Assembly (NCBI GenBank): GCA_023212645.1
Contig: JALBYC010000023.1
Span: 115,220 to 179,219, forward strand
Direction of reading: 5' to 3'
DNA from: Farysia itapuensis
Taxonomy: Eukaryota > Basidiomycota > Ustilaginomycetes > Ustilaginales > Ustilaginaceae
Length of the DNA stretch: 64,000 nucleotides
A program made the translations under genes and the position numbers. Positions within the stretch are counted from its first letter, which is position 1. Each line of letters opens with the position of its first letter. The notes under the pieces were generated by a model. It was not told where the DNA came from. It saw only the letters and a list, made by a program, of their open reading frames with translations, and did not search any database. Shown one piece after another: positions 34,837 through 49,531 of the stretch.

Positions 34837-36816
34837 CTACATCATACCGGCCATCTGACCGAGAGCAGCACCTTGTTCTGGGAAGTCCTGAATAAATTTG
34901 AGCTGTGCTCTCGACGCGTTTTCGTAAGTGAGGGCATTGATCAGCTCCGGTTCGGTACGTGCGATTTCAGCCGAGCGCTCAAAGTAGGCAATCGAATCCT
35001 GAATCTTGCCCTGCTGCAGACTCAGCTGAGCCAGCGTGGCGACGGCTACGTCGCAATCTTCGTCCTTGGCCAGAGCTTGCTTGCACAGGTCTTCGGCCGC
35101 AGCAATATCTTGCTTCCACTGGAAGAGAGCCAGCGCCTTGTTGATCATGGGCAAGACGTTGGTCGACCCCTTTTTGTTGGCTTCAATTTCGATGGCACGG
35201 TCAAACTTCTCCATAGCCTCTTCGAACTTTTGCTGGTCGAGCAGGAGCTCACCGTAGTAGTTGTACGCTTCCGACGAGGTGTCAAAGTTGCGCAACAGCT
35301 TGCGGAAGGAAGCAGTCGAGTGGCCCGTGTTGCCGTTCTTGTAGTGGGCAACTGCATACTGTACCTGCGAGAAGATAAATGTGTTGTCCAGCGACGTTGA
35401 CTTTTCGTAGTCACGGATAGCTGCCTCAAACTCGCCGAGGATAAAGTTGACTTGTCCACGGTGGTAGTAAATGTCTGGGTCCTCGGAGTTGGCTTCGACC
35501 GCCTTGTCAAAGTCTTTGAAGGCCGCCTCCTTGTCGGAGAGCTCCATGTGTACCGAGGCCTTCTTGACCCATGACTGGACGTACTTGGGTCGTAATGTTG
35601 TGCTCTTTTCCAAATCGGCAAGTGCCTCTTTAGCATTGCCAATGACGAAGCGGAACGTGCCACGCATGTTGTATGCATTAGCTTCGAGATCTTGGTTGCT
35701 CAATCCCTGGTCGATGGCCTCATTGAACAGGGAGAATGCGTGTGGGTAATTTTTGGCCGTCAAAGCCTCGTAGGCCTTGACAAGTGTATGATCTCCTTGA
35801 CTTGGGTTGTTAGGCAAGGTGGGAACAGGACTGGCTCGGAAGGCTTCGAGGTAGGCAGTGACAAAGGTGGGTGACGGCAACTTGGGCTCCCGAGTCTTGA
35901 GGATGTCTTGCGCTTTGCCTGTAGCCAGCTTGCGAAGCACGCGCTCGACACTCTCGGTAGCAGTCTGGTCCTTGAATTGCGCCAGAATGGCTACAGCCGT
36001 AAAGTCGGCGAGCGAGTCAAAGAGCTGTTGTGCTTTGGCCTCACCGACACCTTCAGATCCTTCCGTGGGTGAGCCGAGCTGCTCTCTAGCTACAGCTCTT
36101 CTGTTGAGCGCCTTAATGTATGCCTTGTCCATCTTGAGTGCCTGGTTGCAGTCAGCAATGACATTCTCGGGCTGGCTCAAGTTGGCATAGCAAGCGGCAC
36201 GGTTCGAGTAAAAGACCGCCACTGGGTGAGCAGCAATGGCTTTTGTGTAGTGCGCAATCGCTGTCTCGAATTGCCGATTTGAGTAGGCCTTGTTGCCGAG
36301 GTTCTTGAGGTGCTGCGAGAGACTCTTTCGCTTTTCGTCGCTGAGTTTCAGGATATCTGCCTCTGGTAGGGAGGCGAGATGGTCGTCAGAGGCCTCGTCG
36401 AGCAGCGGACCGGAAGGATCAGAAGGAAGACCATCTGTGCGCTGCTGTGGTGCATCCGTAGATCCAGTGCTGGCAGTCTTCTTCTTGGAAGCTTTCTTCT
36501 TCTTGCCCTTCTTGGCTGCAGCGGCGGCGGAAGAATCCGCGCCAGAGGCAGAGTCGATCTTGCTCTCTTCGTCGCTGTCACTGAGCGTGCTTTTGCCTTT
36601 GGGTGTAGATGGACGAGCCGACTTTTTGCTGGCAGAGTAGTAATACCACCCTCCTAGAGCGAGTGTTCCTGTAGCGATGGCGATGACAATGGCGCGATTC
36701 TCTTCGACCCACTTGGACAATTTGTTGGCGGTGTTGTTGGCTGCGAGCTGTGCACGATCTGCAGCGTGGGCGGCTTGCTGCGAGGCCTGCTGAGAGGCGT
36801 TTGCGATAGGCGCCAT
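34837..36816 (-). CDS. TOM70: Mitochondrial import receptor Tom70
   Basis: Outer-membrane receptor that takes preproteins, notably carriers, from Hsp70/Hsp90 and passes them to Tom40. The 659-residue protein has an N-terminal anchor (AIVIAIATGTLALGGWYYY, about residues 44-62) after a short Ala/Gln-rich intermembrane part. A Lys/Ser-rich linker (KKGKKKKASKKKTASTGS) precedes an array of tetratricopeptide repeats. The first, dicarboxylate-clamp repeats are recognisable: LKNLGNKAYSNRQFETAIAH with FYSNRAACYANL and ALNRRAVAREQLG. Later repeats include YHRGQVNFILGEFEAAIRDY, and the C-terminus carries YFERSAEIARTEPELINAL. Single exon, normal length. Divergent from the serine racemase gene. A carnitine carrier, a typical Tom70 client, lies 6 kb away. 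Confidence 0.96.
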   Translation of the reverse strand: MAPIANASQQASQQAAHAADRAQLAANNTANKLSKWVEENRAIVIAIATGTLALGGWYYYSASKKSARPSTPKGKSTLSDSDEESKIDSASGADSSAAAAAKKGKKKKASKKKTASTGSTDAPQQRTDGLPSDPSGPLLDEASDDHLASLPEADILKLSDEKRKSLSQHLKNLGNKAYSNRQFETAIAHYTKAIAAHPVAVFYSNRAACYANLSQPENVIADCNQALKMDKAYIKALNRRAVAREQLGSPTEGSEGVGEAKAQQLFDSLADFTAVAILAQFKDQTATESVERVLRKLATGKAQDILKTREPKLPSPTFVTAYLEAFRASPVPTLPNNPSQGDHTLVKAYEALTAKNYPHAFSLFNEAIDQGLSNQDLEANAYNMRGTFRFVIGNAKEALADLEKSTTLRPKYVQSWVKKASVHMELSDKEAAFKDFDKAVEANSEDPDIYYHRGQVNFILGEFEAAIRDYEKSTSLDNTFIFSQVQYAVAHYKNGNTGHSTASFRKLLRNFDTSSEAYNYYGELLLDQQKFEEAMEKFDRAIEIEANKKGSTNVLPMINKALALFQWKQDIAAAEDLCKQALAKDEDCDVAVATLAQLSLQQGKIQDSIAYFERSAEIARTEPELINALTYENASRAQLKFIQDFPEQGAALGQMAGMM

Positions 36817-37025
36817 GTTTGTGATCGGGGGCCAAAGGAATGCGGTGAGTAGGGACGATGGTTGTGCGCATTACGTCGAAGAAAGTGGAGACCAGAAAGA
36901 GCCAAAAATGGAAGAAAAATCCTTCTTCTCGTCCGAGTCGATTTGACAGCCAAACACCGCGGACAGGCACCCCCATAAAGCTTCCCAAGGGCACCTCTGC
37001 TGCGGAGGAAAGGGGAAGAGCGAAC

Positions 37026-38345
37026 ATGCAACAGCAACCGGAACTGGTCGATCTGTGCCAAGTTCAGCAGGCGCACCAAAGAATCGCACCGCATACGCAC
37101 TACACTCCGTTGCTCACCAATCAGACGGTGGATGCGTTGGCAACATCAGCCCTGTTTGGCGACAGAGCAATCGCATCTCTTCGTCTTGCTTTCAAGGCCG
37201 AACATCTTCAGCGAGTGGGAGCATTCAAGTATCGCGGCGCTACCAATGCTGTACTGACCCACCTAGCTGCGGCGAAGGCGGACCATGCTGCCTCGGGAGG
37301 AGAGCCAAGCGAGTTCAGAGCCAATAAGCTGATTGTGGTCACTCACTCGAGTGGCAATCATGCTGCTGCACTTGCGTGTGCAGCCCAGACTGCAGGGTGC
37401 ATAGCTGCGGTCGTCATGCCGGACAATGCGCCCACGCCAAAACAGAATGCGGTCGCAGGGTATGGAGCGCGTATTACGTTCTGCAAGCCTACGCTAGAAG
37501 CGCGCGAGTCCACTGCCGAGCAAGTGATGCAGCAGTACAAGCAACAAGGCTACACAGTGCGGTTCGTACACCCTTTTGACGAGCGGCTGGTCATTGCGGG
37601 GCAAGGAACCATGGCGCTTGAGATGTTGGACCAAGCGTACTACCTGGAAAACAGAGCTGGTTGCTCACACGCTGCAGCGTCACCTGCTTCGAGTAGAGCA
37701 GCACTCGGTGCAAAAGGAGTACCCGCAGAGGGGTTGAAAGCGGACGCACTTTGGGCAGCACGATCTGCTGAAGAACCCGCACTGGACATCGTCATCGCGC
37801 CCGTGGGTGGCGGAGGAATGCTGTCTGGCGTGTCCAGCGCCATCAAAGGTGCCGATCCAAGAATCGTCGTTATTGGCGCTGAACCTGATCTTGTCAACGA
37901 TGCTTTTCACTCTGTGCAGACCAACGAGGTGCAATCGCCGCCACAACCACCCAAGACGATCTGCGATGGACTGTTGACGTCGCTATCACCGCTCACGCTT
38001 GCTCACATCCGCAAGAATGTAGACACCATTTCCACCGTGCGGGAAGAGCACGTATTCAGAGCATTACAGCTTCACTGGGAGCGTCAGAAGCAGTTGGTAG
38101 AACCGAGTGCAGCCGTCGGACTTGCAGCTGTCTTACAAGGGCACAACGAAGCCGGCAAGCAAAGCGGAAAGGAAGTTAGCTCCGACCAATCTCTCTGGGG
38201 CGTCGAGCAATGGGCAAACCACATCGCTCAGAAGAAAATCGCTGCAGGCCAAACCAAGCCAGAGATCCGCATTGGGATTGTCTGGAGCGGTGGCAATGTC
38301 GAAGTCGCCAAGATTGTCACGCAATTCCAAGCGCACGGCCTGTAG
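37026..38345 (+). CDS. Serine racemase-like PLP enzyme (fold type II)
   Basis: PLP-dependent racemase/dehydratase acting on serine or threonine-like substrates. The 439-residue product has the Schiff-base lysine in VGAFKYRGATNAVL (about Lys68), the substrate loop VTHSSGNHAAALACAAQ typical of serine racemase rather than biosynthetic threonine deaminase, and the phosphate-binding glycine loop PVGGGGMLSG. It ends with ERQKQLVEPSAAVGLAAVL and IGIVWSGGNVEVAKIV. There is no ACT regulatory domain. A Ser/Ala-rich insert of about 50 residues (near 205-250) between conserved strands makes it longer than the 340-residue animal enzyme. An ATG at 36858 is in frame, but the extra 56 residues are Lys/Arg-rich and unlike the family, and it lies only 42 bp from the TOM70 start. 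Confidence 0.87.
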   Translation: MQQQPELVDLCQVQQAHQRIAPHTHYTPLLTNQTVDALATSALFGDRAIASLRLAFKAEHLQRVGAFKYRGATNAVLTHLAAAKADHAASGGEPSEFRANKLIVVTHSSGNHAAALACAAQTAGCIAAVVMPDNAPTPKQNAVAGYGARITFCKPTLEARESTAEQVMQQYKQQGYTVRFVHPFDERLVIAGQGTMALEMLDQAYYLENRAGCSHAAASPASSRAALGAKGVPAEGLKADALWAARSAEEPALDIVIAPVGGGGMLSGVSSAIKGADPRIVVIGAEPDLVNDAFHSVQTNEVQSPPQPPKTICDGLLTSLSPLTLAHIRKNVDTISTVREEHVFRALQLHWERQKQLVEPSAAVGLAAVLQGHNEAGKQSGKEVSSDQSLWGVEQWANHIAQKKIAAGQTKPEIRIGIVWSGGNVEVAKIVTQFQAHGL

Positions 38346-38374
38346 TAATGTCATGTAGATTAGAAGCGTGCTTG

Positions 38375-39008
38375 CTACTCCGGTGGCCGGAGTGGTCCTC
38401 CAAAGTTTGTGCCGTCACCTTTGCCCGAATAGAGCTTGTCCTGCTTGTCCACCTTGTCTTCGCTGTATCGGTCTTGGGCCATCTTAGCACTGCTTCGGTA
38501 GCTGGTGCTGATGTCTGGGTTGCCATTGGCTTTGTTTTGGAACGAGAGTGGCACGTCTAAGCCCACGCGACGGGCCGTGAGTCGGACGCGTTCTTCCTCC
38601 GTCATATCATGTTGTGGGTTGTACCGAATCAACAGGTCCTAATACCATGAGAACGCAATGATTAGTCACATACATTGACAGCTAGCATTGTCCCTACTTA
38701 CAGCGTAGATGGCCTTGTTGGCCAGAAAGATCTCAAGATTCTCCAGTGTTTGCGCTCTCAACTCTTGTGCAGACTTTGTGTTGCCACCAAAGGGCTGCTT
38801 TTGGCTCGAAGCAGGGCCGGAGCTTGCTTTCCCGCTGTAGTCTGACTGCAGAAACGAGACCAGTGGTCCAGTCTCGGCCTGGAGGAATCATGTCAGCGTT
38901 TGATAATCGCACTGGAGGGCCAGAACCTACATTCTTCTGAGCTTCCTTTAGTGCTCTCTGGTACAGACTTGCCACAGAGGTGAGCCTGGTTCGTGTTGGA
39001 GCAAACAT
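38375..39008 (-). CDS. FMC1: Fmc1-like mitochondrial F1-ATPase assembly factor, three exons
   Basis: Assembly or stability factor for the F1 sector of ATP synthase. Exons: 39008-38931 (MFAPTRTRLTSVASLYQRAL, an LYR-like start), 38878-38702 (ETGPLVSFLQ, then LENLEIFLANKAIYA) and 38638-38375 (DLLIRYNPQHDMTEEERVRL, then ARRVGLDVPL). All junctions are phase 0 with GTAGGT/GTAAGT donors and CCAG/TTAG acceptors; total 172 residues. The final conserved block, a basic helix followed by a TEEERVxxTARRVGLxxP segment, is the signature I use for Fmc1 and matches human C7orf55/FMC1 in pattern (EE...GLVGLKLP). The middle is Ser/Gly-rich and longer than in human. It converges on the serine racemase gene with 29 bases between stop codons. 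Confidence 0.72.
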
Positions 39009-39072
39009 GTTGTGTGCGTGAGTGACGGACCCTGCCAAACCAGGAATTCTCTCCTCCAAAAATGCGCTTTTT

Positions 39073-39372
39073 TTATTGCGACATTTTCTTGTTGGAGAAT
39101 CCTTCCTTCTTCTTCTCATACCACGACGTACTATGTTCACATGAGAGCCAGTACCTCGTAACCCTCTGGGTAAGTAATAGCCTACTTGCAGGACGGTACA
39201 CGCATCCTGCCAGCTCTAAAGTGATGATACCACGTTCCGATGGGCGGACATAAACAACTTGGCTTCTCTTCTCTTTGTCCCTACTTTGCTCCGGTGTACA
39301 AATGTGAGCGGTGGGACAGAGACGCTCTGGATGCTCATCAGCGTTCAGTTCGCTAAAAAAGGCTGCCGACAT
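39073..39372 (-). CDS. Weak candidate: small hypothetical protein
   Basis: A 99-codon minus-strand frame from ATG 39372 (MSAAFFSELNADEHPERLCP) whose first 60 residues look protein-like (VVYVRPSERGIITLELAGC). A possible short intron (GTAGGC...CCCAG) lies near 39190-39165. No family recognised. It lies directly upstream of FMC1 on the same strand, so it may instead be leader sequence of that gene. Confidence 0.28.
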   Translation of the reverse strand: MSAAFFSELNADEHPERLCPTAHICTPEQSRDKEKRSQVVYVRPSERGIITLELAGCVYRPASRLLLTQRVTRYWLSCEHSTSWYEKKKEGFSNKKMSQ

Positions 39373-39635
39373 TTGGTGATATACATCGGTTTCTGATGAC
39401 AGCTGCTCAGCAATTGTGTGGACCGACTGCGACCATCGTCATTCGCTAACCCGCATACTGACCTTCTAGCTACATTGTGCGTGGTATATACATAGGCAAT
39501 ACAACCTCCGCTATCCCTGTAACATCTGTGATGAGTGTGTTGTTGAATGAACCAGGTGTGCTGAGTGCAAAGACCGGAAAATATCAGCGGCTGTCAATCA
39601 GCTCTTCTCCTTTTCCCACTACCATCAAGCGAAGG
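39373..39635. other. Upstream region of SHG1
   Basis: The frame of SHG1 stays open upstream to about 39477 and contains an ATG at 39531, but the added residues look like leader. No other feature seen. Confidence 0.4.
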
Positions 39636-40367
39636 ATGGAGATCGACACAGATCAGCAGCCTGCCGCCAAGGTCGAGCACACATCCGATGCTGCATCCTC
39701 TCTACCGCTACAAACAGCTTCTGCAGCACCTTCCACAGGCTTGACGCCAGATCAAGTGTTTCAAGAGTTTAAGAAAGCCGGCTTCCTAGATCAGCTGCGA
39801 CGCCAGATGTTTGACGCATTTGTCTCGTCCAGCACTCAAGCATCCCAGTCGCACGACACAGCAGCAAGGCACAGCGTCAACCCTGTTGACTCTTCCTCAA
39901 GCCTTACTTCGCCCGCAAATGCGCTGTCGGAACTGGGCTCTAAGCAAGCCTTTACCACGTATCTCGACACCGTCCTCCGCTCTCAGGTTGAAAAAGAACA
40001 CGACCGGCTTCGATTTCAAGACCCGCGGAACCAGCTAGACACGCTACTCAAGTTCCTCGACTCGGAGCCTGTCACTGCTGTCGTAGATCACGCGCCAGAA
40101 GCAACATTGTACGAACAATTGACTGCCCACGTTGCCAAACCGACGGCTGACAAGCAGAATGCACACGCGACAAAGGGCATGCTCACGAAACAAGGCCACA
40201 TGGGCGAGCAAGTCTCACAGCGAATCACTGAACTCATTGCCGATCTCACCAATCCAGCTGCCAAAGCAGGCGACGATGAAGATGACGACGACGACGATCT
40301 GGACAAGACACTCAACGCGATTACAACTTCGACTGGGGCTAACGAGGCACAGAGCATGGTGAATTGA
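39636..40367 (+). CDS. SHG1: COMPASS subunit Shg1 (BOD1/SHG1 family)
   Basis: Small subunit of the Set1/COMPASS histone H3K4 methyltransferase; animal BOD1L relatives work with SET1A. The conserved N-terminal module is present: VFQEFKKAGFLDQLRRQMFD, then a Ser-rich loop, then FTTYLDTVLRSQVEKEHDRL and RNQLDTLLKFLDSEP, which is the SHG1 helix pair. The product is 243 residues from MEIDTDQQPA and ends with an acidic tail (DDEDDDDDDLDKTLNAITTS). An alternative ATG at 39531 would add 35 residues. It converges on the DENN gene with only 13 bases between the two stop codons, so the transcripts must overlap. Confidence 0.82.
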   Translation: MEIDTDQQPAAKVEHTSDAASSLPLQTASAAPSTGLTPDQVFQEFKKAGFLDQLRRQMFDAFVSSSTQASQSHDTAARHSVNPVDSSSSLTSPANALSELGSKQAFTTYLDTVLRSQVEKEHDRLRFQDPRNQLDTLLKFLDSEPVTAVVDHAPEATLYEQLTAHVAKPTADKQNAHATKGMLTKQGHMGEQVSQRITELIADLTNPAAKAGDDEDDDDDDLDKTLNAITTSTGANEAQSMVN

Positions 40368-40380
40368 TTGCAGCAGTATG

Positions 40381-42744
40381 CTATAGGAGCCAGCGGAGGA
40401 GGGTCCAGCCTTTCTCGACCCGTACAGCAGCGGTCTGCTCTCTTTCCCGTCCCTCGGGCAATTCAAGGTACTGCGAGCCGAGCGTCTCTACCAGCTCGAC
40501 GTCCAGATTGTTGCCAGCGCTGAGGCCCATGGACGACATGTCGGCTGGCTTGAACGTCACTGTGCCTGTAATGTCGTCCGCCTCTTCTAGAACATCGAGC
40601 AGGCCAAAGACCAGAGCTGTAGTCCAATGCGACCACACCATCCACAGGGAATCGGAGAGGATGGTGCGCAACCTTTCGTCGGAGCGCGATTCCTCCGTCT
40701 CCGTATCTTGACCGCCGGAGACTGATCGGGCGTGCAGGGATCGCTCCATGCTCAAGCGGCGTCGCGAACTGAAGGACCGTCGATCTGACTCGCCCGCCAC
40801 GGAACTTCGTCGAGCTCCTGCAGCACCCACTGCAGCTAACAGGGGATCTGGTGGCACGAGAGCGTGATGACGAGGTGCTTGCAGCTGTCCGTCATCCGAA
40901 GAGGACGAAGTGGTCGCCGATGGGTCTTGCTCGCCAGCCTCTGCTTCGAGGTCGGTCGGGGTTTCGTCGTGCACGGCTTCTTGGGCGTCATCGTGGTCCT
41001 CATTGTCGTCGTCCAACTCTTCTTCACTCTCGTCTTCGGGCATGACGAGGATACTTGCACGCACTCCACCATCGCCGCGGATACCCAGAGGCAGGACGTA
41101 GGCCGCTGGAAGTCCGTATCGCCAGTAACGCGGCAGGAACCACCAACCGGCAATCCAGTAGCGCAGAAAAGTGAGGATCGCACTCATCATGCCCGCCCGA
41201 CCGCGGTGCGGGACGCGCGCACATCCACCTCGCCACTGCATCCGACCCTCGTCCTCGTGTACATGGCTGCGCACGTCGTCCTCGGTCTGGTGGTGGTGGT
41301 GTCGTCCTCCGCGTCTTCGCATGGTCGACACTGTGTGATCGCCATCGTCGCTGTCAGTCTCGTGGCGTCGCTGCTTCCAACGAGGCACACACGCGTCCTC
41401 GCCAACCCGCACGATCCGTTCAACATGTCGTTCCGCCTGCGCATCTAGCTCGTTGAACACGGCAAATTCTCGCGTCGTCCACTTGTCCTTGTGCAGTTCC
41501 GCCCGAACGCGTCCATTGCCGTCTTGGGTGCGTACGACTTTCCAGAGCCGCGCAAAGTCGGTCGAATTTTCGCAGCCGGACTCGGTGAGAACGCCACCGG
41601 ACGACGTGTTGACCAGCGGCGTTAGGTCAAGCACTGTGTCGAACAGGTGCGGTTTTTCAAGCAGCAGCTTGTCGGTAGACCATGCAATCCAGCTTTGAGC
41701 AGGGGCGGCGATGTGTCCCCTCTGTCTGTCCTTCTCCGCCTGGTCGAGGTGTGTGATGTCGTGCAGACCTATTTGGCCTTTGATGTGAATCGGGTTGAAG
41801 TGGTAGGCCGGGTTGCGTTTGGCGGATCTGCCCAGGGCTACGTCGACAAGGTCAGCGAGGTTGAAGCCGAGGTACGCGGCGTGGACCAAGGGTGGCGCTG
41901 GGGAGAAGATGAGCAGACGATGACGGGGGAGCATGAGTCGTTTGAGCACGTGGGGGAGTACGGCGCCGAGTGACCCGCACAGTGCTGGCATGTGGGATAT
42001 AGGATCGTACGCCAGATTGCGTGGATCACGTCGGCGTCGCATACGCATCTGCCTCAACTGTCGCACAGTCATACCACCGCCCTGGCTTGCCCCCACCGCT
42101 GCTGTTGGCGCTGGTGCTTTCCAGGCGTGGGCGTTGTAGTAGGTCCGCAGGACTTCGGTCTGTTCCGGCGCTTTGGCAAGCTGGTCAGCGATGAGGTTCA
42201 GATTGGCCAGGTGGGGTACGATGGCCAGTTGCTGAGCGGCCGTGGACAACGACGATTGCCTCGTGTCGACGTCGCAGTGCAGAATCAGGCCTACGCTGAT
42301 CATCCGTGCACCACGCTGTTCCTCCACCCCCTCTTGCTGTGCCGTGCTGAGCTTGTAGTTGCGGAAACAGGCAACCCCCGTCATTCCTGCTGCCGGGTCA
42401 AAGTAGACCGTATCCCTGTCGATCAAATGCCCCCCACTCGGGAGAACTTTCCACTCCACCCCGGCCAGATCCACGCCATGCTGCTGTGCGGTGTTGGGCG
42501 AGGTGTCAACGTCGACGAGCTTGGCCTTGCCGTTGGCGCCGCTGAACGGCGGCGGAGCGGGCGGGTACTGGTACTCGATCTCATTGCCTTTGCGTACGTG
42601 AAAGCGCGCTAGAAAGACAGTCACCACATTGGCCGGCAGCAGAGCCAGCACCGGCGCCGCACTCGACCCAGACCGTGCGGTGTTGTTGCCCACCATAGCG
42701 CATAGCGACGAGCGAAGGCGCGAAATCCAAACAAAATCGCACAT
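40381..42744 (-). CDS. LCHN/DENND11-like DENN-domain protein (DUF2347/DUF4484 type)
   Basis: Probable Rab-GEF-like membrane traffic protein of the small DENN branch that includes animal DENND11 and budding yeast Anr2. The longin-like start (VVTVFLARFHVRKGNEIEYQ, then YP) is followed by FRNYKLSTAQQEG and MISVGLILHC. The DENN core contains LCGSLGAVLPHVLKRLMLPR with HRLLIFSPAPPLVHAAYLGF, then HDITHLDQ and SWIAWSTDKLLLEKP, and the DUF4484-type end contains LSDSLWMVWSHWTTALVFGL. Long His/Asp/Glu-rich inserts (RRRGGRHHHHQTEDD; DESEEELDDDNEDHDDAQEA) separate the blocks. 787 residues from ATG 42744; ATG 42696 (MVGNNTARSG) is an alternative start. Rab specificity is not predictable. Confidence 0.7.
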   Translation of the reverse strand: MCDFVWISRLRSSLCAMVGNNTARSGSSAAPVLALLPANVVTVFLARFHVRKGNEIEYQYPPAPPPFSGANGKAKLVDVDTSPNTAQQHGVDLAGVEWKVLPSGGHLIDRDTVYFDPAAGMTGVACFRNYKLSTAQQEGVEEQRGARMISVGLILHCDVDTRQSSLSTAAQQLAIVPHLANLNLIADQLAKAPEQTEVLRTYYNAHAWKAPAPTAAVGASQGGGMTVRQLRQMRMRRRRDPRNLAYDPISHMPALCGSLGAVLPHVLKRLMLPRHRLLIFSPAPPLVHAAYLGFNLADLVDVALGRSAKRNPAYHFNPIHIKGQIGLHDITHLDQAEKDRQRGHIAAPAQSWIAWSTDKLLLEKPHLFDTVLDLTPLVNTSSGGVLTESGCENSTDFARLWKVVRTQDGNGRVRAELHKDKWTTREFAVFNELDAQAERHVERIVRVGEDACVPRWKQRRHETDSDDGDHTVSTMRRRGGRHHHHQTEDDVRSHVHEDEGRMQWRGGCARVPHRGRAGMMSAILTFLRYWIAGWWFLPRYWRYGLPAAYVLPLGIRGDGGVRASILVMPEDESEEELDDDNEDHDDAQEAVHDETPTDLEAEAGEQDPSATTSSSSDDGQLQAPRHHALVPPDPLLAAVGAAGARRSSVAGESDRRSFSSRRRLSMERSLHARSVSGGQDTETEESRSDERLRTILSDSLWMVWSHWTTALVFGLLDVLEEADDITGTVTFKPADMSSMGLSAGNNLDVELVETLGSQYLELPEGREREQTAAVRVEKGWTLLRWLL

Positions 42745-42825
42745 TTCCGCCCATTTTTCAGATGAATTCTTCTCCCATTCTGACTGTCTATGAATGTATA
42801 TGTGCTGTGTGAGAACGGGGGTTGG

Positions 42826-42844
42826 CTGTGTGTGTGTGTGTGTC
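42826..42844. repeat. (GT)n microsatellite
   Basis: A run of about nine GT/TG dinucleotides just downstream of the carrier stop codon, in its 3' UTR (minus-strand gene). Possible length-polymorphic marker. Confidence 0.8.
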
Positions 42845-42858
42845 GGGGTGTGCGCTGT

Positions 42859-43867
42859 CTAGAACAGCTTGTCCATGGCCCGGAGCGAGTATTCCACACC
42901 CAACTGTTGATCGGAGCCAAAACGAGAGGTCAGTAAGAAGGGACAGTAGAAGGATGTGTCTCAAAGGTATACGTACAAAGGTAGCGGCGTTGGCAGGGAA
43001 GGCACGAGCCATGGCTGGGCCGAAGCCTTTGAAGAGAGCCTTGGGCCCGTCCTTTGCGACCGTCTTTTTGGCGCAGTCGAGGAAGCCGGTGTAGGTGCCG
43101 TGGGGTGCGCCCTGGTAGCGCGACTTGATGACGTCCGGGGGGATGGCGAGTGCCCACATGGCCATTCCGGCCAGACCACCGGCGACAAGGACGCTGAGCA
43201 TGTTGAGTTCCTGTGGGTCAGGTCCAGCCGGGGTGAGGAGACGCTTGGTGGCCTCGTAGGCGCAGAAGTAGGCGGCACTGCCTGGACCGTCTCGTGCCAA
43301 CGTCGCTCCCGTACCGCGGAAGATGGACTTGAGACCACCCTCCTTGTACAGCTGACGAACAACATCCACCGGACCGTTGTATACGGGTCCCGTACTGCTG
43401 CTCTGACCCTGCAGCTGCAGGAGCACCTTGACTCGCTCCGCAGGTCCAGCAACCATGGTCGTCGGAATCGCACTTAGAAATCCAGCACCGGCCAGTTCTG
43501 GAATGCTCAGCTTGGGATCCGTCCGGTTGGGCGTCAGAGCATACACCACCTTCTTGGACATGTCGTACGACCAAAAGGAGAGGGCAAAGATGGGCGTCAC
43601 ACCAACCAGAGGAGGTCCCATTCCTCTGTACAGTCCCCGAATGCCATCCGCCTTGATCGTCTTGCGCACGACATCCAGCCCGCCCGTGTAGGTTCCATCG
43701 GCAGCCGTCTGCAGTCGAGTCTTTGTCAGGTCAAACGGATGGCCGACGAGCACGGAGCTGACACCACCAAAGCCGCCAGACAGGAACGACTTGATCGACG
43801 ACGTGGCCTGCTTCTGGTTCTCAAACTCTTCATCCCGGATAGCGGCGGAAGTCTGATCGTCTGCCAT
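42859..43867 (-). CDS. CRC1: Mitochondrial carnitine/acylcarnitine carrier, two exons
   Basis: Inner-membrane carrier exchanging acylcarnitine for carnitine in fatty-acid/acetyl-unit transport. It has three carrier repeats with signatures HPFDLTKTRLQ, GPAERVKVLLQ and PPDVIKSRYQ, the second of which with its AERVK is typical of the carnitine carrier. Other marks are YRGMGPPLVGVTPIFALSFW and RGTGATLARDGPGSAAYFCA. Exon 1 (43867-42977) ends FPANAATF, and a GTACGT...CAACAG intron leads to exon 2 (42903-42859, LGVEYSLRAMDKLF), restoring the last transmembrane helix in the family pattern. Reading through the intron would give an unrelated tail, so the splice is well supported. 311 residues. Confidence 0.92.
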
Positions 43868-44197
43868 GGTTGTGGTAATGGGAAGAAAGGGGGGTTATCG
43901 CTTTTCCGCCCTCGTTTTTCCCGTTCCCCGGCTTCTCCTCACAAATTCTCCGCTCACTCACCCACCCGGAGCCGGGGGTAAATCGACACACCCGATTCCT
44001 CCGCTTTTTTCCACCATGCCCGCTTCGCCTTTCATCATCGCACATAGACTATCAAGTGGTGAGCGCAAAAGTGCACAACTGCAGACATAACGATGGTGCG
44101 ATAGTCCCCCGGGGTGCGGGGGGGAAAGGAGAGCAATGGTATTTCACGCGCGAAATTGCTGATCGCAAACAAATTCCCATCGGGGTTACCGATGTGT
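43868..44197. other. Gap between the carnitine carrier start and the COX16-ERV1 3' end
   Basis: About 330 bp, no gene seen. It contains the carrier promoter and the 3' end of the upstream minus-strand gene. Confidence 0.45.
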
Positions 44198-45274
44198 CTA
44201 GCATCGGCCATCGGGCGGTCCTTCGAGCCACCTTTGATGTAAGCTGCGTTCGGTGCAGGGGAAGCTTGGCTTGCCGAGACGTTGGTTGACCTCGTTGTGG
44301 ATACCGCACAGCCATTTGCGCAGAGAGGGGCCTGACATGACTGCTTGCTTGAGCCGTAGACTCGGGTCTTGCCAGCCTCCATCGCGCTCTTCGCGCTGAT
44401 ACTCTTCCCCCAGCGCTTGTGCACAAGAGTGGCACGGGTATAAGTCGGGCAGGGAACGCATCAATGCAAGCATCGAAGTCTGCTGCTGTGCTGATGGATC
44501 TGGTGGGAAGTAGGCAGCAGCCGAGTGTAGAAATGTCCACGTAGCTCGACCCAATTCTTCGACGTCTGGCGGACATTCGGGTGAGGGCTGAATTGCGGCT
44601 GCTGCCCCTGTGCCAGCTGCGGCCACAGTTGCTGGTTTGGATATCGCTTGCGCTTTGTCGCCTTTGACTCCTCCCTTCATGGCGGCTGAGAAAGCTAGTT
44701 TGGAGTTACAGGCTCGACATGGCTTGCCGTCGGGCCCGAGAACGACTTTGGTCTGCCGCTGAGATGGTCTGACAGTTTCGGTGCTGACTCCCCTTTCGCG
44801 CTCCGTTTCGGCGTCCGTTGATGAAAGACTTTCCGTCTCAATCGCCCCAGACGAAGACGGTGGTACTCCCCAATCTGGCACGCCGTCGGGACGTTGAACC
44901 CGCTTCGGTTCCCAGTCATCCAACTCGTCCGCCTTCGCTTGCAACCTCTGCTCGCAAAAATCCCAACGTCAATACTACATCTCTTACTTTTAGAAGACGC
45001 GCTCGCGCCCACTTACAAAGTACTCTTCACGGATGTCGACTCGCTTGCGGTCCTTTCGCATCTTGAGCTCGTCCTCTTTGCTCAGCGTCTGAACCTTGGT
45101 TGCGTTGTAGTCGTACCTCGTTTGCGTAAGTGCACTCAGTCCGAAACTCGCCGCTACCATGGTTGCCATGAACGGCAGCCCAAAGAACAGCAGAGGATGC
45201 TGCCGCACTTTGGGCGTCAGCCGCGCCCAAAGCGTGTTCGACTTGCGCCACGGCTTGGACTCGAACGTGGGCAT
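44198..45274 (-). CDS. COX16-ERV1 fusion: cytochrome oxidase assembly factor joined to IMS sulfhydryl oxidase
   Basis: Two normally separate mitochondrial proteins in one frame. Exon 1 (45274-45017) encodes the Cox16 core: basic N-terminus, membrane helix HPLLFFGLPFMATMVAASFG, QTRYDYNATKVQTLSKEDEL and KRVDIREEYF. A GTAAGT...GAGCAG intron (phase 0) leads to exon 2 (44947-44198), which first finishes Cox16 with RLQAKADELDDWEPKRVQRP. After a 40-residue Ser/Glu linker it continues without a stop into a full Erv1/ALR domain: the shuttle motif CRAC (about 163-166), GRATWTFLHSAAAYFP, the active CHSC (about 258-261), HNEVNQRLGKPSFPC and a Cx16C pair (about 300/317). 335 residues. The Erv1 part has no ATG of its own before CRAC. 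Cox16 exposes its C-terminus to the intermembrane space, where Erv1 works, so the topology is compatible. Confidence 0.9.
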
Positions 45275-45422
45275 CGTGTTGCAAAGGAGAGGGACTCAGC
45301 CACTCGAGAGAAAAACGGGGAGGAGAGTTGCCCATTCCCGTCTTCCGAGATTGGCAGGTGGCCGACATCTTCCTGGAAACGCTCACCCAGGAATGTAGCA
45401 TGTTGGCGCCCTGAGGGAGGTC

Positions 45423-48221
45423 ATGCCGGTCCTTACTGGCCTGCGTCAGTCGCCAACATACCTGTATGTCAAAGTGTACTGCATATGCTGCCTGGTGACT
45501 CTCTTTCAGGCGTCCCCTGTTTCCTCTCGTATCCCGCAGATCGGCCAGACACTCCAGCTGTCAAAGTACCGCATCATCACCACCCGTCTTGGGCCACGGA
45601 TCGTTCCAATAGACGAGGCTGTACCTTCGGTGACCCAGACCGACACTGCAGAGCTCGTGATATCGTCAGATCTGCTCGGCAGATCACCGGCGCAGTCTCG
45701 CTTTCGTACCATTACGCAAAGATGGTCCCAGCGAGCAAGGGATCTGGCCCATGTTCGACAGTTCCTCAAGGCAGACGACAACGATCTCAAGTCGTATCCT
45801 GAGCTGCAATGGGATGCGACTGTCCGTCGCTCAGCCGCTCTCCATCCGCAAGAGCGCCAATTTATCCAGACTCGGCGCGAAGCTATCTCATCTCAAGGCA
45901 GTAACAGTCTTCACACCTTTCTCGACCTAGGCCCTGATGAACAGGTACACCCGGAGGATATACCCCTTGTGGCCATTGGAGGATCTGGAGGCGGCTATCG
46001 AGCAATGTATGGCTTTGCTGCTTTCATCTCGGCCGCCAAAGAGTCTGGCCTATGGGCGTGCACTACCTGGGTGGCCGGGGTCAGCGGCAGCTGCTGGACA
46101 CTCGCCGCCTACTACACCATCGCTTATCACGACGCCGGACGTCTGATCAAGCACTTTCTCGCCACTGCAAGCGAGCTTGCTCATCCCATGAGCGTCTATG
46201 CCTTAGACACAGTCGCTCGAAGTAGCCGCGGTGTCTACTTCCTCATCGGCCCCCTCATCCGCAAAGCTCACGCCGGTATTGTAGGACTAGGCATCATGGA
46301 CCTCTACGCCACACTGACCACCTCCTACCTGCTGTTATCCCGCGAACCACGCGCACGTCTGAGTCGAGCTACGTTTCAGTTCTCCAAGATTTGGTCCCGT
46401 TCTGGTATTGGCGCCGGCTTGGAACCCATGCCGATATTCACCGCGGTTCGCGTCGCTCCCAGGGACGCCATTGGCGTCCGACCACACGGAGACTCATCCC
46501 TCAGCAAAGGCTCGCCGCCTAAAAGAGCCCTTGTGCAGCATCAAACCTCGGCCTCCCAAGCAATCGCTCAGCACCGCACCGCCTCTGTCCCAACAGAATA
46601 CAAGCCGAGCCCGCCATCAGTGGGCTTTCCCGATATACTCGGCGAGCCAGTGGCAAAAGGATACTTTCAGTGGTTTGAAGCTTCACCCCTCGAGATTGGG
46701 AGTGCTGATCTGCAGGCGTACATTCCTACCTGGGCGTGGGGGCGTGCGTTTGTTTCGGGACACTCGCTGGACCGTCGACCGGAAGAGTCGCTTTCGCTGC
46801 TGCTAGGCCAGTGTACCAGCGCGCCTGCTGGTCCCCTAACTGGCTACATCTCGGCGTTACTCGCTTCGCTGCCAAAGGGAACCATCATGTCCAGGGCTCT
46901 GCTGGTGTTGAACAACTTTGTCCGTATGAAGCGGTGGGAGCGTCGTTGGGGGAATCCAATCCGCGCTGGCGACGAACCCAACCCTTTCTATGGCCTAAAA
47001 GTCCGACCAGCAAGCAAACAGACTGCACCGCCAAACAACAGCTCCTCCATTATCGGCATCGGCATTGACATTCTCCACATGCCGAGGATCGACGCCATCG
47101 TAGCACGACGAACAAGGAAGCTACCTGCACCCGGTCCGCAAGAACACGTGACCGTTCGAGCCCTGTCCAAACTTGCAAAGCGCATCTTGTCGGCAAGCGA
47201 ACTGCTAGAATGGAATCAGATGTGCTGCGAAGCCGCATCACCGACTTCCACGCTGAGATTGCAAGAATACCTAGCCACGAGGTGGTGCGCCAAGGAAGCG
47301 GCTTACAAGGCGCTGTACCCTAAATTCGTCGTGTCGTGGAAGGATCTCTGTGTTGACAAGAGCGCGCATGCATCTGGGCCGAAACCTGTGCTGCGCTTTT
47401 CGAGCGAGGGTTTGGCGCGGCACGCGTCGGCGCGGTGTGTCAGCTTCCACCTGAGTGTTTCACACGACGCTGGATATGCGATTGCCAACGTTGTCGCTGA
47501 GCAGAGTGAAGGTCCGGTGCGAGTGCCAGGTGGTGCAAATCTGTACGACTGGGATCAGTTCCAGCTGCCTCAGCCTTCAGCGCAGTCAGACGCGTCCCGC
47601 ACCGTACAGTCGACGACGACAACGACGACACACGATCCCTCGTGGGAATCTCAGGGCAGAATCCGACTGATGGACTCTGGAATGTCCAACAACTTACCAA
47701 CCCACATACTCGCACGGACAGAGCGGGCCGCCGACGTAATCATCGCCTTCGACGCCTCCTCAGACGTCCAGGCCGGATCGGCCATCCGTCGAATCCAAAA
47801 TTTTGCGGACGACTGTCATATCCACTTGCACGAGGAAGAGTCGCACCTATTTCCCCCAGCAGCGGCGGCAGCGGCGGTGGGGGTGGCGGTGGCGGGGCTG
47901 TCGGACGACGCGAGGCGGATCGAAACACGCTTTGCAGACCAGTACGCGCGCGTGTTTAAGGGCACACGCCATCACGACAACTCGCACTTTTGGCTCATCT
48001 ACTGCCCTTTACTCCCCAACTCGATCAATCCGCAGTACGACCCTAGCACGTCCTCGTTCAGCAACTCGTACAATCTCGTCTGGACCCCAGCACAGGTTCG
48101 AACGTTGCTCGCCACATCCGAGGCAAACCTTGCGCACTGCGCCCTGCCCGTCATCAAGAAAGTCATGCGCAGCGTGTACGAGCAGAAGAAAGCGCACAGA
48201 CTCGCACGCACACCACTATAG
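45423..48221 (+). CDS. Cytosolic-type phospholipase A2 with an inserted holo-ACP synthase (4'-phosphopantetheinyl transferase) domain
   Basis: A single 932-codon frame. The first 540 residues carry the cPLA2/lysophospholipase fold: oxyanion segment AIGGSGGGYRAMYGFAAFI (about 184), nucleophile GVSGSCWTLAAYY (Ser about 220), TWAWGRAF and NPFYGL. The sequence then switches to an AcpS-type transferase (about 540-695): SIIGIGIDILHMPRIDAI, LAKRILSASELLEW, YLATRWCAKEAAYKAL and HLSVSHDAGYAIANVV, with the metal-binding Asp and Glu. It then returns to the phospholipase at RIRLMDSGMSNNLP (catalytic Asp about 751), followed by IIAFDASSDVQ. The transferase thus sits in the loop between nucleophile and Asp. 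The N-terminus has a hydrophobic segment (YVKVYCICCLVTLF) that could be a signal anchor or organelle signal. AcpS-type fungal enzymes normally activate mitochondrial ACP (Ppt2). Divergent from COX16-ERV1, 148 bp apart. Confidence 0.9.
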   Translation: MPVLTGLRQSPTYLYVKVYCICCLVTLFQASPVSSRIPQIGQTLQLSKYRIITTRLGPRIVPIDEAVPSVTQTDTAELVISSDLLGRSPAQSRFRTITQRWSQRARDLAHVRQFLKADDNDLKSYPELQWDATVRRSAALHPQERQFIQTRREAISSQGSNSLHTFLDLGPDEQVHPEDIPLVAIGGSGGGYRAMYGFAAFISAAKESGLWACTTWVAGVSGSCWTLAAYYTIAYHDAGRLIKHFLATASELAHPMSVYALDTVARSSRGVYFLIGPLIRKAHAGIVGLGIMDLYATLTTSYLLLSREPRARLSRATFQFSKIWSRSGIGAGLEPMPIFTAVRVAPRDAIGVRPHGDSSLSKGSPPKRALVQHQTSASQAIAQHRTASVPTEYKPSPPSVGFPDILGEPVAKGYFQWFEASPLEIGSADLQAYIPTWAWGRAFVSGHSLDRRPEESLSLLLGQCTSAPAGPLTGYISALLASLPKGTIMSRALLVLNNFVRMKRWERRWGNPIRAGDEPNPFYGLKVRPASKQTAPPNNSSSIIGIGIDILHMPRIDAIVARRTRKLPAPGPQEHVTVRALSKLAKRILSASELLEWNQMCCEAASPTSTLRLQEYLATRWCAKEAAYKALYPKFVVSWKDLCVDKSAHASGPKPVLRFSSEGLARHASARCVSFHLSVSHDAGYAIANVVAEQSEGPVRVPGGANLYDWDQFQLPQPSAQSDASRTVQSTTTTTTHDPSWESQGRIRLMDSGMSNNLPTHILARTERAADVIIAFDASSDVQAGSAIRRIQNFADDCHIHLHEEESHLFPPAAAAAAVGVAVAGLSDDARRIETRFADQYARVFKGTRHHDNSHFWLIYCPLLPNSINPQYDPSTSSFSNSYNLVWTPAQVRTLLATSEANLAHCALPVIKKVMRSVYEQKKAHRLARTPL

Positions 48222-48319
48222 TTAAACCACCCCCATTTTTCTAAGGGCATAGCCGGTAGTTGTAGCAATAAAGTGTGACGAGGGATATGTGGTGTGGGCC
48301 TGCGAGAGCTGTTGGTGGT

Positions 48320-49531
48320 TTAGGTGTTTGTGCGGAGCCAGGCGTCGACCCAGTTGTTGGGCTGCGCGGTCTGCGCTGGCGGCGTGTTGGTGATGTGGTT
48401 CCAGAGACTTTCCAGCCTCTGAATGGCGATTTGTCTATTCAGCTCTGTGTTCTTGTGGCCGTCGTCTATGGGCGTGGTTGCCTGCTCGATTGTTTCACGC
48501 AGTAAAGGGGGTAGACCGTATACGTCGTCTAGGTAGGTGGATGGTGCGAACCAGCGCGTGATCTTGCGCACCAACGTCGCCGCCACCGCATCGCCCTCGT
48601 CCGCAGTCACCGTGGTGGTAGTGGTGGTGGTGGTGGAGGAGGATTCGGGTCTTGCGTCAAACACCGCACGCAGCGCGTCTTGGGCCGTGAGCGCATACAC
48701 CCCTTCGTGGGCTTCGCGGTTGTCCGGCCGCGGTATCGCGAGTTCCTGCCGGCCCTGTTCGGATGCTTGTGTCTCGGCCAGAGCGAGGTGCATCGCCGCC
48801 TGCTCGGCGCTAAACCCGGAATTCCACGGCGAAGGTGCCGAGTACTGCGCATCGAAACCTCGCAGCAGCACCCCGCGCGCTAAATCAGGCCTCTGCGTCG
48901 ACGAAACCACCTCTTCTACCTCCGCGGAAGACTCTTCTTCAGCGTCAAGAAGAGCAAAGATATCATCCGCCCGTTCAACACCGGTGGTCGGCGAGATCGA
49001 GGAGTCGAGACCTGCTCGAACAGCGTCGTACATTGGAGCGTCGAGATCTGTGTAGCTAGCAATTGGGGCTAACGTCGTAGCATACGGGTTCAAACCTGCC
49101 CTCTGCCAGTCCACGCCTTGAACTGCGGGGGTTACTTCGGGTCGTGGTGGGGGAGGAGCAGCAGCACCGCGTTGGAACTCGGCGAACCCGTCCGCGCTAC
49201 CGGCACTGCTTTGGTGGGAGCGGAACCCGGCATGAGCGTAGCGTGGGGCCTGGCTGGTAGAAGCCTGTGAGCGCAGATCCTGCGTCAACCACTCGCGCAG
49301 CGCCCCATCCGACGACGACGACGACGCCGGCGCGGTCTGTCTGAACTCTTCCTTGCCCGAAGAAACGGTGTTGAGCACCGAGCTCAGCTGCGACGATGCC
49401 ATACCCGACCGCAGTGTCGAGGCCAACGACCGTCCCACCCCTCGCGGTACTTCTGCGGCGGCGGAGGAGGAGGACTCGCCTTCGTCCGCCGTCCGTGCTT
49501 TTCCCCCCTGCTTGGCTTGTTCCCCAACCAT
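48320..49531 (-). CDS. Unrecognised protein with disordered N-terminal half
   Basis: 403 residues, single exon. The N-terminal part is Ser/Ala/Pro-rich and disordered, with one short conserved-looking helix (GALREWLTQDLRSQ). Residues from about 140 (DWQRAGLNPYATTLAP) through 230 contain an acidic helix (DDIFALLDAEEESSAEVEE). An eight-Thr run lies near residue 307. The C-terminal 90 residues look folded: VRKITRWFAPSTYLDDVYGL, then RQIAIQRLESLWNHI and the final NNWVDAWLRTNT with repeated Trp. I recognise no domain. Converges on the phospholipase gene with 98 bp between stops. Confidence 0.72.
   Translation of the reverse strand: MVGEQAKQGGKARTADEGESSSSAAAEVPRGVGRSLASTLRSGMASSQLSSVLNTVSSGKEEFRQTAPASSSSSDGALREWLTQDLRSQASTSQAPRYAHAGFRSHQSSAGSADGFAEFQRGAAAPPPPRPEVTPAVQGVDWQRAGLNPYATTLAPIASYTDLDAPMYDAVRAGLDSSISPTTGVERADDIFALLDAEEESSAEVEEVVSSTQRPDLARGVLLRGFDAQYSAPSPWNSGFSAEQAAMHLALAETQASEQGRQELAIPRPDNREAHEGVYALTAQDALRAVFDARPESSSTTTTTTTTVTADEGDAVAATLVRKITRWFAPSTYLDDVYGLPPLLRETIEQATTPIDDGHKNTELNRQIAIQRLESLWNHITNTPPAQTAQPNNWVDAWLRTNT

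Follow-up and report, generated by a model that had tools for sequence, protein, structure and literature searches.

A holo-acyl carrier protein synthase domain inside the phospholipase domain of a probable bifunctional mitochondrial protein in Farysia itapuensis

We analyzed a 64,000-nucleotide stretch of the Farysia itapuensis genome (assembly GCA_023212645.1, contig JALBYC010000023.1, positions 115,220 to 179,219 of the forward strand), hereafter the window, whose own numbering is used below. A single open frame encodes a protein in which an AcpS-type (holo-acyl carrier protein synthase) 4'-phosphopantetheinyl transferase (PPTase) domain lies inside the catalytic domain of a cytosolic phospholipase A2 (cPLA2)-type phospholipase. 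Judging from its sequence and predicted structure, the protein is probably bifunctional, combining the phospholipase with an active mitochondrial AcpS that replaces Ppt2, the two being fused for a shared address.

Architecture of the fused protein

The frame runs uninterrupted from ATG to stop, with an in-frame stop at 45396 on the 5' side of the start (Table 1). Pfam analysis of the 932-amino-acid protein gave PLA2_B at 66.8 bits in two stretches and ACPS at 45.4 bits for residues 545-672, both above their cut-offs (curated cut-off of ACPS, 25). In comparison with solved structures, matches to human cPLA2-alpha flank the insert (query 134-232 strong, 414-489 and 741-780 weak) and matches to bacterial AcpS fall within it. 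In the predicted structure of the whole protein, folds of both kinds are present and matched. An earlier note, made from the sequence alone, had described a domain-in-domain insertion in one frame and proposed a structure prediction, and these results bear out its description. A putative 46-nt intron near the start (45464-45509) was rejected because its nucleotides code for an N-terminus that all 20 of the 20 aligned rows conserve. The Rfam scan of 44000-49500 gave no match, and ARAGORN found no tRNA across the window.

Table 1. Features of the fused gene and its neighbors in window coordinates
Feature	Position	Strand	Basis
cPLA2-type phospholipase with inserted AcpS, complete coding frame, 932 aa	45423..48221	+	frame, Pfam, relatives' alignment
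N-terminal 62 residues: 7 Lys/Arg, zero Asp/Glu, hydrophobic stretch; presequence-like	45423..45608	+	sequence composition; localization inferred
Phospholipase core part 1, residues 134-525 (GGSGGGYRAM, nucleophile elbow GVSGSCW, as far as NPFYGL)	45822..46997	+	Pfam, structure matches, model
Arg193, aligned with cPLA2-alpha residue 200	45999..46001	+	structure alignment
Ser221 nucleophile, aligned with cPLA2-alpha residue 228	46083..46085	+	structure alignment
Linker preceding insert, residues 526-540, low confidence	46998..47042	+	predicted structure
AcpS-type 4'-phosphopantetheinyl transferase domain, residues 541-695	47043..47507	+	Pfam, relatives, NCBIfam, predicted structure
Asp549, AcpS metal-binding residue (GIGID)	47067..47069	+	alignment
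Glu625, AcpS metal-binding residue (AKEAAYKAL)	47295..47297	+	alignment
Lys629, AcpS motif lysine	47307..47309	+	alignment
His681 of AcpS SHD motif	47463..47465	+	alignment
Linker following insert, residues 696-740, low confidence from 702	47508..47642	+	predicted structure
Phospholipase core part 2, residues 741-932, with RLMDSGMSNNLP	47643..48218	+	structure matches, insert-free profile, model
Asp751 of phospholipase dyad, aligned with cPLA2-alpha residue 549	47673..47675	+	structure alignment, insert-free profile
COX16, divergent neighbor, 148 bp between start codons	44990..45274	-	
Erv1/Alr neighbor	44198..44944	-	

The outer domain belongs with the Group IV cPLA2 enzymes: the PLA2_B score exceeds its cut-off, the predicted fold is that of cPLA2, and the Ser/Asp dyad (S221, D751) and the arginine (R193) are present. 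Their counterparts in cPLA2-alpha (residues 200, 228, and 549) we take to be its catalytic residues, and a profile from 15 insert-free relatives gave the same placement. The core fold and the Arg/Ser/Asp residues are shared with Group IV enzymes, whereas the Farysia protein has a basic N-terminus instead of the N-terminal C2 domain of animal cPLA2-alpha (Pfam reported none of the C2 families at E <= 1) and carries AcpS just ahead of the catalytic Asp.

In the inserted domain, which has the AcpS fold in the predicted structure, D549, E625, and K629 align with free fungal AcpS, and a free-AcpS profile aligns these motifs with bacterial AcpS. D549 and E625 are the metal-binding residues of AcpS, and K629 is its motif lysine. 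The closest free relatives are basidiomycete holo-ACP synthases (for example Rhodotorula P0123, 45% identity across 93% of the domain). The earlier assignment to the AcpS type is upheld; the domain is not of the Sfp type. The domain shares the AcpS motifs and catalytic residues with fungal mitochondrial enzymes of the Ppt2/PptB type (36-52% identity to 14 free fungal enzymes). However, those listed are free and mostly 120-150 amino acids long (Tilletia maclaganii, 229), whereas here the domain is embedded in a 932-amino-acid frame rather than being a free-standing small protein; it is classed by domain, as AcpS, and the protein is not called a Ppt2. The alpha subunit of fungal fatty acid synthase (FAS) also holds a PPTase within a larger lipid enzyme (L001), but at its C-terminus, whereas the AcpS described here is enclosed by a second catalytic domain and its target would be an acyl carrier protein (ACP) outside the enzyme. 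The FAS domain has intrinsic activity only, on its own complex, according to PMC3360786.

Intact, decayed, and absent inserts among relatives

The whole-protein database search scored 7988 candidates and gave 324 relatives, of which 120 were listed; family counts refer to these and the window protein (121 rows). In 22 of the 121 rows, those of the window protein and of 21 database entries, the insert carries D, E, K, and H together in the alignment columns; these are all 22 of the Ustilaginales-type rows. Ten of the 21 are named to species: Testicularia cyperi, Sporisorium reilianum, S. scitamineum, S. graminicola, Pseudozyma hubeiensis, P. flocculosa, Ustilago trichophora, U. hordei, Melanopsichium pennsylvanicum, and Kalmanozyma brasiliensis. 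The taxonomy lookup, which covered four species, placed Testicularia and P. flocculosa in the Ustilaginales, and the other eight belong there too. The architecture recurs in other Ustilaginales; the earlier note had proposed to look among other Ustilaginomycotina. When long proteins were sought with only the AcpS part, 17 rows resulted, all within the 21; as a census this is not full because it missed P0001, P0008, P0017, P0120, and every decayed insert.

The relatives with decayed or absent inserts are an addition to the earlier reading. Decayed inserts of 189-239 amino acids, with both D and E replaced in every case, are found in 11 further rows, eight of them named: Stachybotrys (two), Paramyrothecium, Ilyonectria, Dactylonectria (two), Thelonectria, and Mariannaea. 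Stachybotrys elegans is an ascomycete by taxonomy lookup, and the other named hosts are ascomycetes too. The remaining 88 rows have 3-100 residues at the insert position and no AcpS. These insert-free homologues (those named are Fusarium, Clonostachys, Apiospora, and other ascomycetes) share the N-terminus and the phospholipase core (53-59% identity in five aligned) and differ in having this short linker in place of AcpS. Where these residues are fewest, the sequence reads NPFYG, then HTPE, then WERQTKIRLMDGG, which pins the insertion point to a few residues.

The cPLA2 Arg, Ser, and Asp are kept in 21 of the 22 Ustilaginales-type rows, the exception being P0092, a truncated model without R and S, and in nearly all 121 rows. 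In addition, Lys replaces Arg in a Fusarium group including F. oxysporum, Gly replaces Ser in P0113, and some models are truncated. The insert-free P0113, with Gly at the aligned nucleophile column, may be an inactive phospholipase, or its alignment may have slipped there. The decayed and insert-free relatives indicate that the phospholipase can do without a working AcpS.

Origin of the insert

In a phospholipase tree of 119 rows, built by a quick method with the insert excluded and P0092 and P0110 left out, the 21 intact rows form one side of a branch (100*), the decayed rows stand in three places among the others, and the presence of the insert requires four changes. In an AcpS tree of 73 rows, whose bootstrap was not fully settled, all 33 fused domains grouped together (99/96) with the decayed group nested inside (100/99); support for the fused group was weaker in a reduced-set tree (80/86). 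In a combined tree, the free AcpS of Tilletia joined P0120, a long and oddly composed row, among the fused rows, a pairing that we take as a probable long-branch effect. Neither a single clade of the intact rows (p 0.279 in the combined tree, 0.421 in the reduced set) nor a position of Tilletia's free AcpS as the nearest kin of the insert (p 0.582, reduced set) was rejected by approximately unbiased (AU) tests. Because the intact-row clade was not rejected, we claim no direction of transfer between phyla. The simplest reading is that the domain was inserted once and later decayed, and was lost repeatedly, in ascomycetes; the route may have been from Ustilaginales to ascomycetes, the reverse, or inheritance with wide loss.

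Other PPTases and the ACP substrate

Pfam ACPS had three matches in the genome (13.7 Mb, 53 contigs): a FAS-alpha frame identified by eye, the phospholipase-embedded AcpS, and an Sfp-type enzyme. The earlier note had raised the question of another AcpS/Ppt2 gene, and no free AcpS was found with Pfam ACPS or with free AcpS of Tilletia and Botryobasidium as queries; these queries matched the embedded copy and otherwise gave one match at E 0.155. A mitochondrial ACP match with a basic leader and a DSLD motif, its frames split by introns, was found in L017, so the substrate is present.

Among 78 database relatives in the size range of the domain, the named free enzymes belong to red yeasts (Rhodotorula among them), Agaricomycetes, rusts, early fungi including Mucoromycota, and the smut Tilletia, which falls in a different class (Exobasidiomycetes, by taxonomy lookup). 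The sole entry named from the Ustilaginales is P0196 (Ustilago sp. UG-2017a, 216 amino acids), which by eye resembles a partial duplicate of the fused AcpS domain with its first half missing. By eye, P0121 resembles a fragment and P0122 a shifted model of the fused domain.

The N-terminus

The absence of acidic residues across the first 62 positions has a chance of about 0.005 given the composition of the window protein. In 19 of 21 intact rows (P0092 omitted) the first Asp/Glu is at residue 64, and in the other two at 58 and 71, with 7-9 Lys/Arg before it. The first Asp/Glu lies at 29-115 in the 11 decayed rows. Of the 61 insert-free rows that have a standard start, 58 show it no earlier than residue 38. 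By its composition, such an acid-free basic N-terminus would suit a mitochondrial presequence, and it would fit the shared location that the earlier note had offered as one reason for the fusion.

Proposed function and alternatives

We hypothesized that the outer domain would act as a cPLA2-type serine/aspartate phospholipase, and that the inserted AcpS would move 4'-phosphopantetheine from CoA to a serine of the mitochondrial ACP. The domain would have taken over the role of a free Ppt2, the free form then being lost. The insert would occupy a permissive site just before the strand bearing the phospholipase Asp, so that both folds could close. AcpS is a homotrimer, and the inserted domain may drive trimer formation. 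The presequence-like N-terminus of the phospholipase would deliver AcpS to mitochondria, and a shared address seems the likeliest reason for the fusion.

Several points weigh against this proposal. The presequence-like N-terminus also occurs in relatives without AcpS, indicating a trait of the phospholipase family rather than of the insert, and it could be a membrane anchor instead. With the NCBIfam model acpS TIGR00516 (cut-off 59.8), the whole protein scored 51.8 and the domain by itself 59.6, both below the threshold; the wider TIGR00556 was passed (46.8 vs 45.35). These models serve bacterial and archaeal annotation. Mean pairwise identity is lower in the AcpS core (0.71) than in most of the phospholipase (0.81-0.92), and is 0.70 at the phospholipase C-terminal end. 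In the predicted structure (predicted template modeling score 0.63), the phospholipase portion is of low confidence at 345-415, 427-470, 508-537, and 702-752, the last including D751. Two database models deviate from the full plan (P0122, with another frame 5' of AcpS; P0092, which starts inside). The genome search for AcpS ignores introns, and the assembly searched may be incomplete. The Sfp-type enzyme might also serve the mitochondrial ACP; a mammalian paper (PMC12671336) deals with the cytoplasmic PPTase AASDHPPT in mitochondrial phosphopantetheinylation. PMC4659657 allows for broad specificity of some PPTases.

The last points lend weight to a quite unlikely alternative, in which the transferase is active but the Sfp-type enzyme (L003/L024) serves the mitochondrial ACP while the fused AcpS acts on a different substrate or elsewhere, as an N-terminal membrane anchor would allow. 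Against it, the domain is most closely related to free fungal holo-ACP synthases, and the AcpS-type Ppt2p of yeast activates the mitochondrial ACP exclusively, as stated in PMC3360786. An unlikely reading is also that the insert serves as a structural or regulatory module, such as a trimerization unit, with catalysis secondary, which is likely the case in the ascomycete relatives. However, D, E, K, H, and many further positions are invariant in 21 of 21 Ustilaginales-type rows (P0092 omitted) at 71% mean identity of the AcpS core, and this and the failure to find a free AcpS by Pfam and the two queries argue for catalysis.

The earlier note had also suggested that acyl release and ACP activation may be coupled. 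Catalytic coupling, whereby the holo- or acyl-ACP state gates phospholipid hydrolysis or released acyl chains pass to the ACP pathway, could draw on the position of the insert between the two dyad residues in all 22 Ustilaginales-type rows. We regard it as very unlikely, since the linkers on either side of the insert are of low confidence in the model and probably flexible, and since nearly all relatives whose AcpS has decayed or is missing retain the phospholipase residues, which argues against obligatory coupling. The cut or shifted models P0092 and P0122 might suggest an assembly or gene-model artefact, but insert and motifs recur in 21 other database rows from several sources and both folds appear in the predicted structure, leaving this extremely unlikely. 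A bolder version of the bifunctional proposal has a small but appreciable chance: Ustilaginales may have lost every free PPTase, all of them now being parts of larger enzymes, with the sole supply of active mitochondrial ACP (hence lipoate and respiratory assembly) coming from inside a phospholipase, and AcpS trimerization or ACP binding may gate lipid hydrolysis at the mitochondrial membrane.

Significance

According to PMC4659657, Ppt2-type enzymes are essential in fungi where tested (Candida albicans and, as cited there, Aspergillus fumigatus) and are proposed as an antifungal target. If an order that includes plant pathogens makes AcpS activity only inside a phospholipase, the annotation "phospholipase A2" overlooks an essential function. 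The family also offers a natural series of a single domain insertion: the insert is apparently active in Ustilaginales, whereas some ascomycetes have it in decayed form and others lack it, and its junction can be located to within a few residues. The earlier note knew of no described protein with this plan. This stands for the literature searched (titles and abstract openings), where no publication describing a phospholipase-AcpS fusion was found (the word phospholipase is absent from PMC13208730), but the proteins are already in public databases, mostly named phospholipase or unnamed.

Neighboring genes and a second fusion

A 1035-codon frame elsewhere in the genome (L024, G000:C4:103500-108500, frame start 64; L003:25-2001) joins indoleamine 2,3-dioxygenase (PF01231) to the Sfp/AASDHPPT-type PPTase (PF22624 and PF01648); a plain-word literature search found no publication on such a fusion. 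If this frame is one protein, all three PPTases detected in the genome are embedded in larger enzymes.

Upstream of the fused gene, the window at 34837-45274 holds mitochondria-related genes, namely those for a tetratricopeptide repeat protein that is anchored N-terminally and by eye resembles Tom70, for a mitochondrial carrier, and for Erv1/Alr and COX16, which give a weak hint of the address. A pyridoxal phosphate enzyme and a DENND11 gene are interspersed among them.
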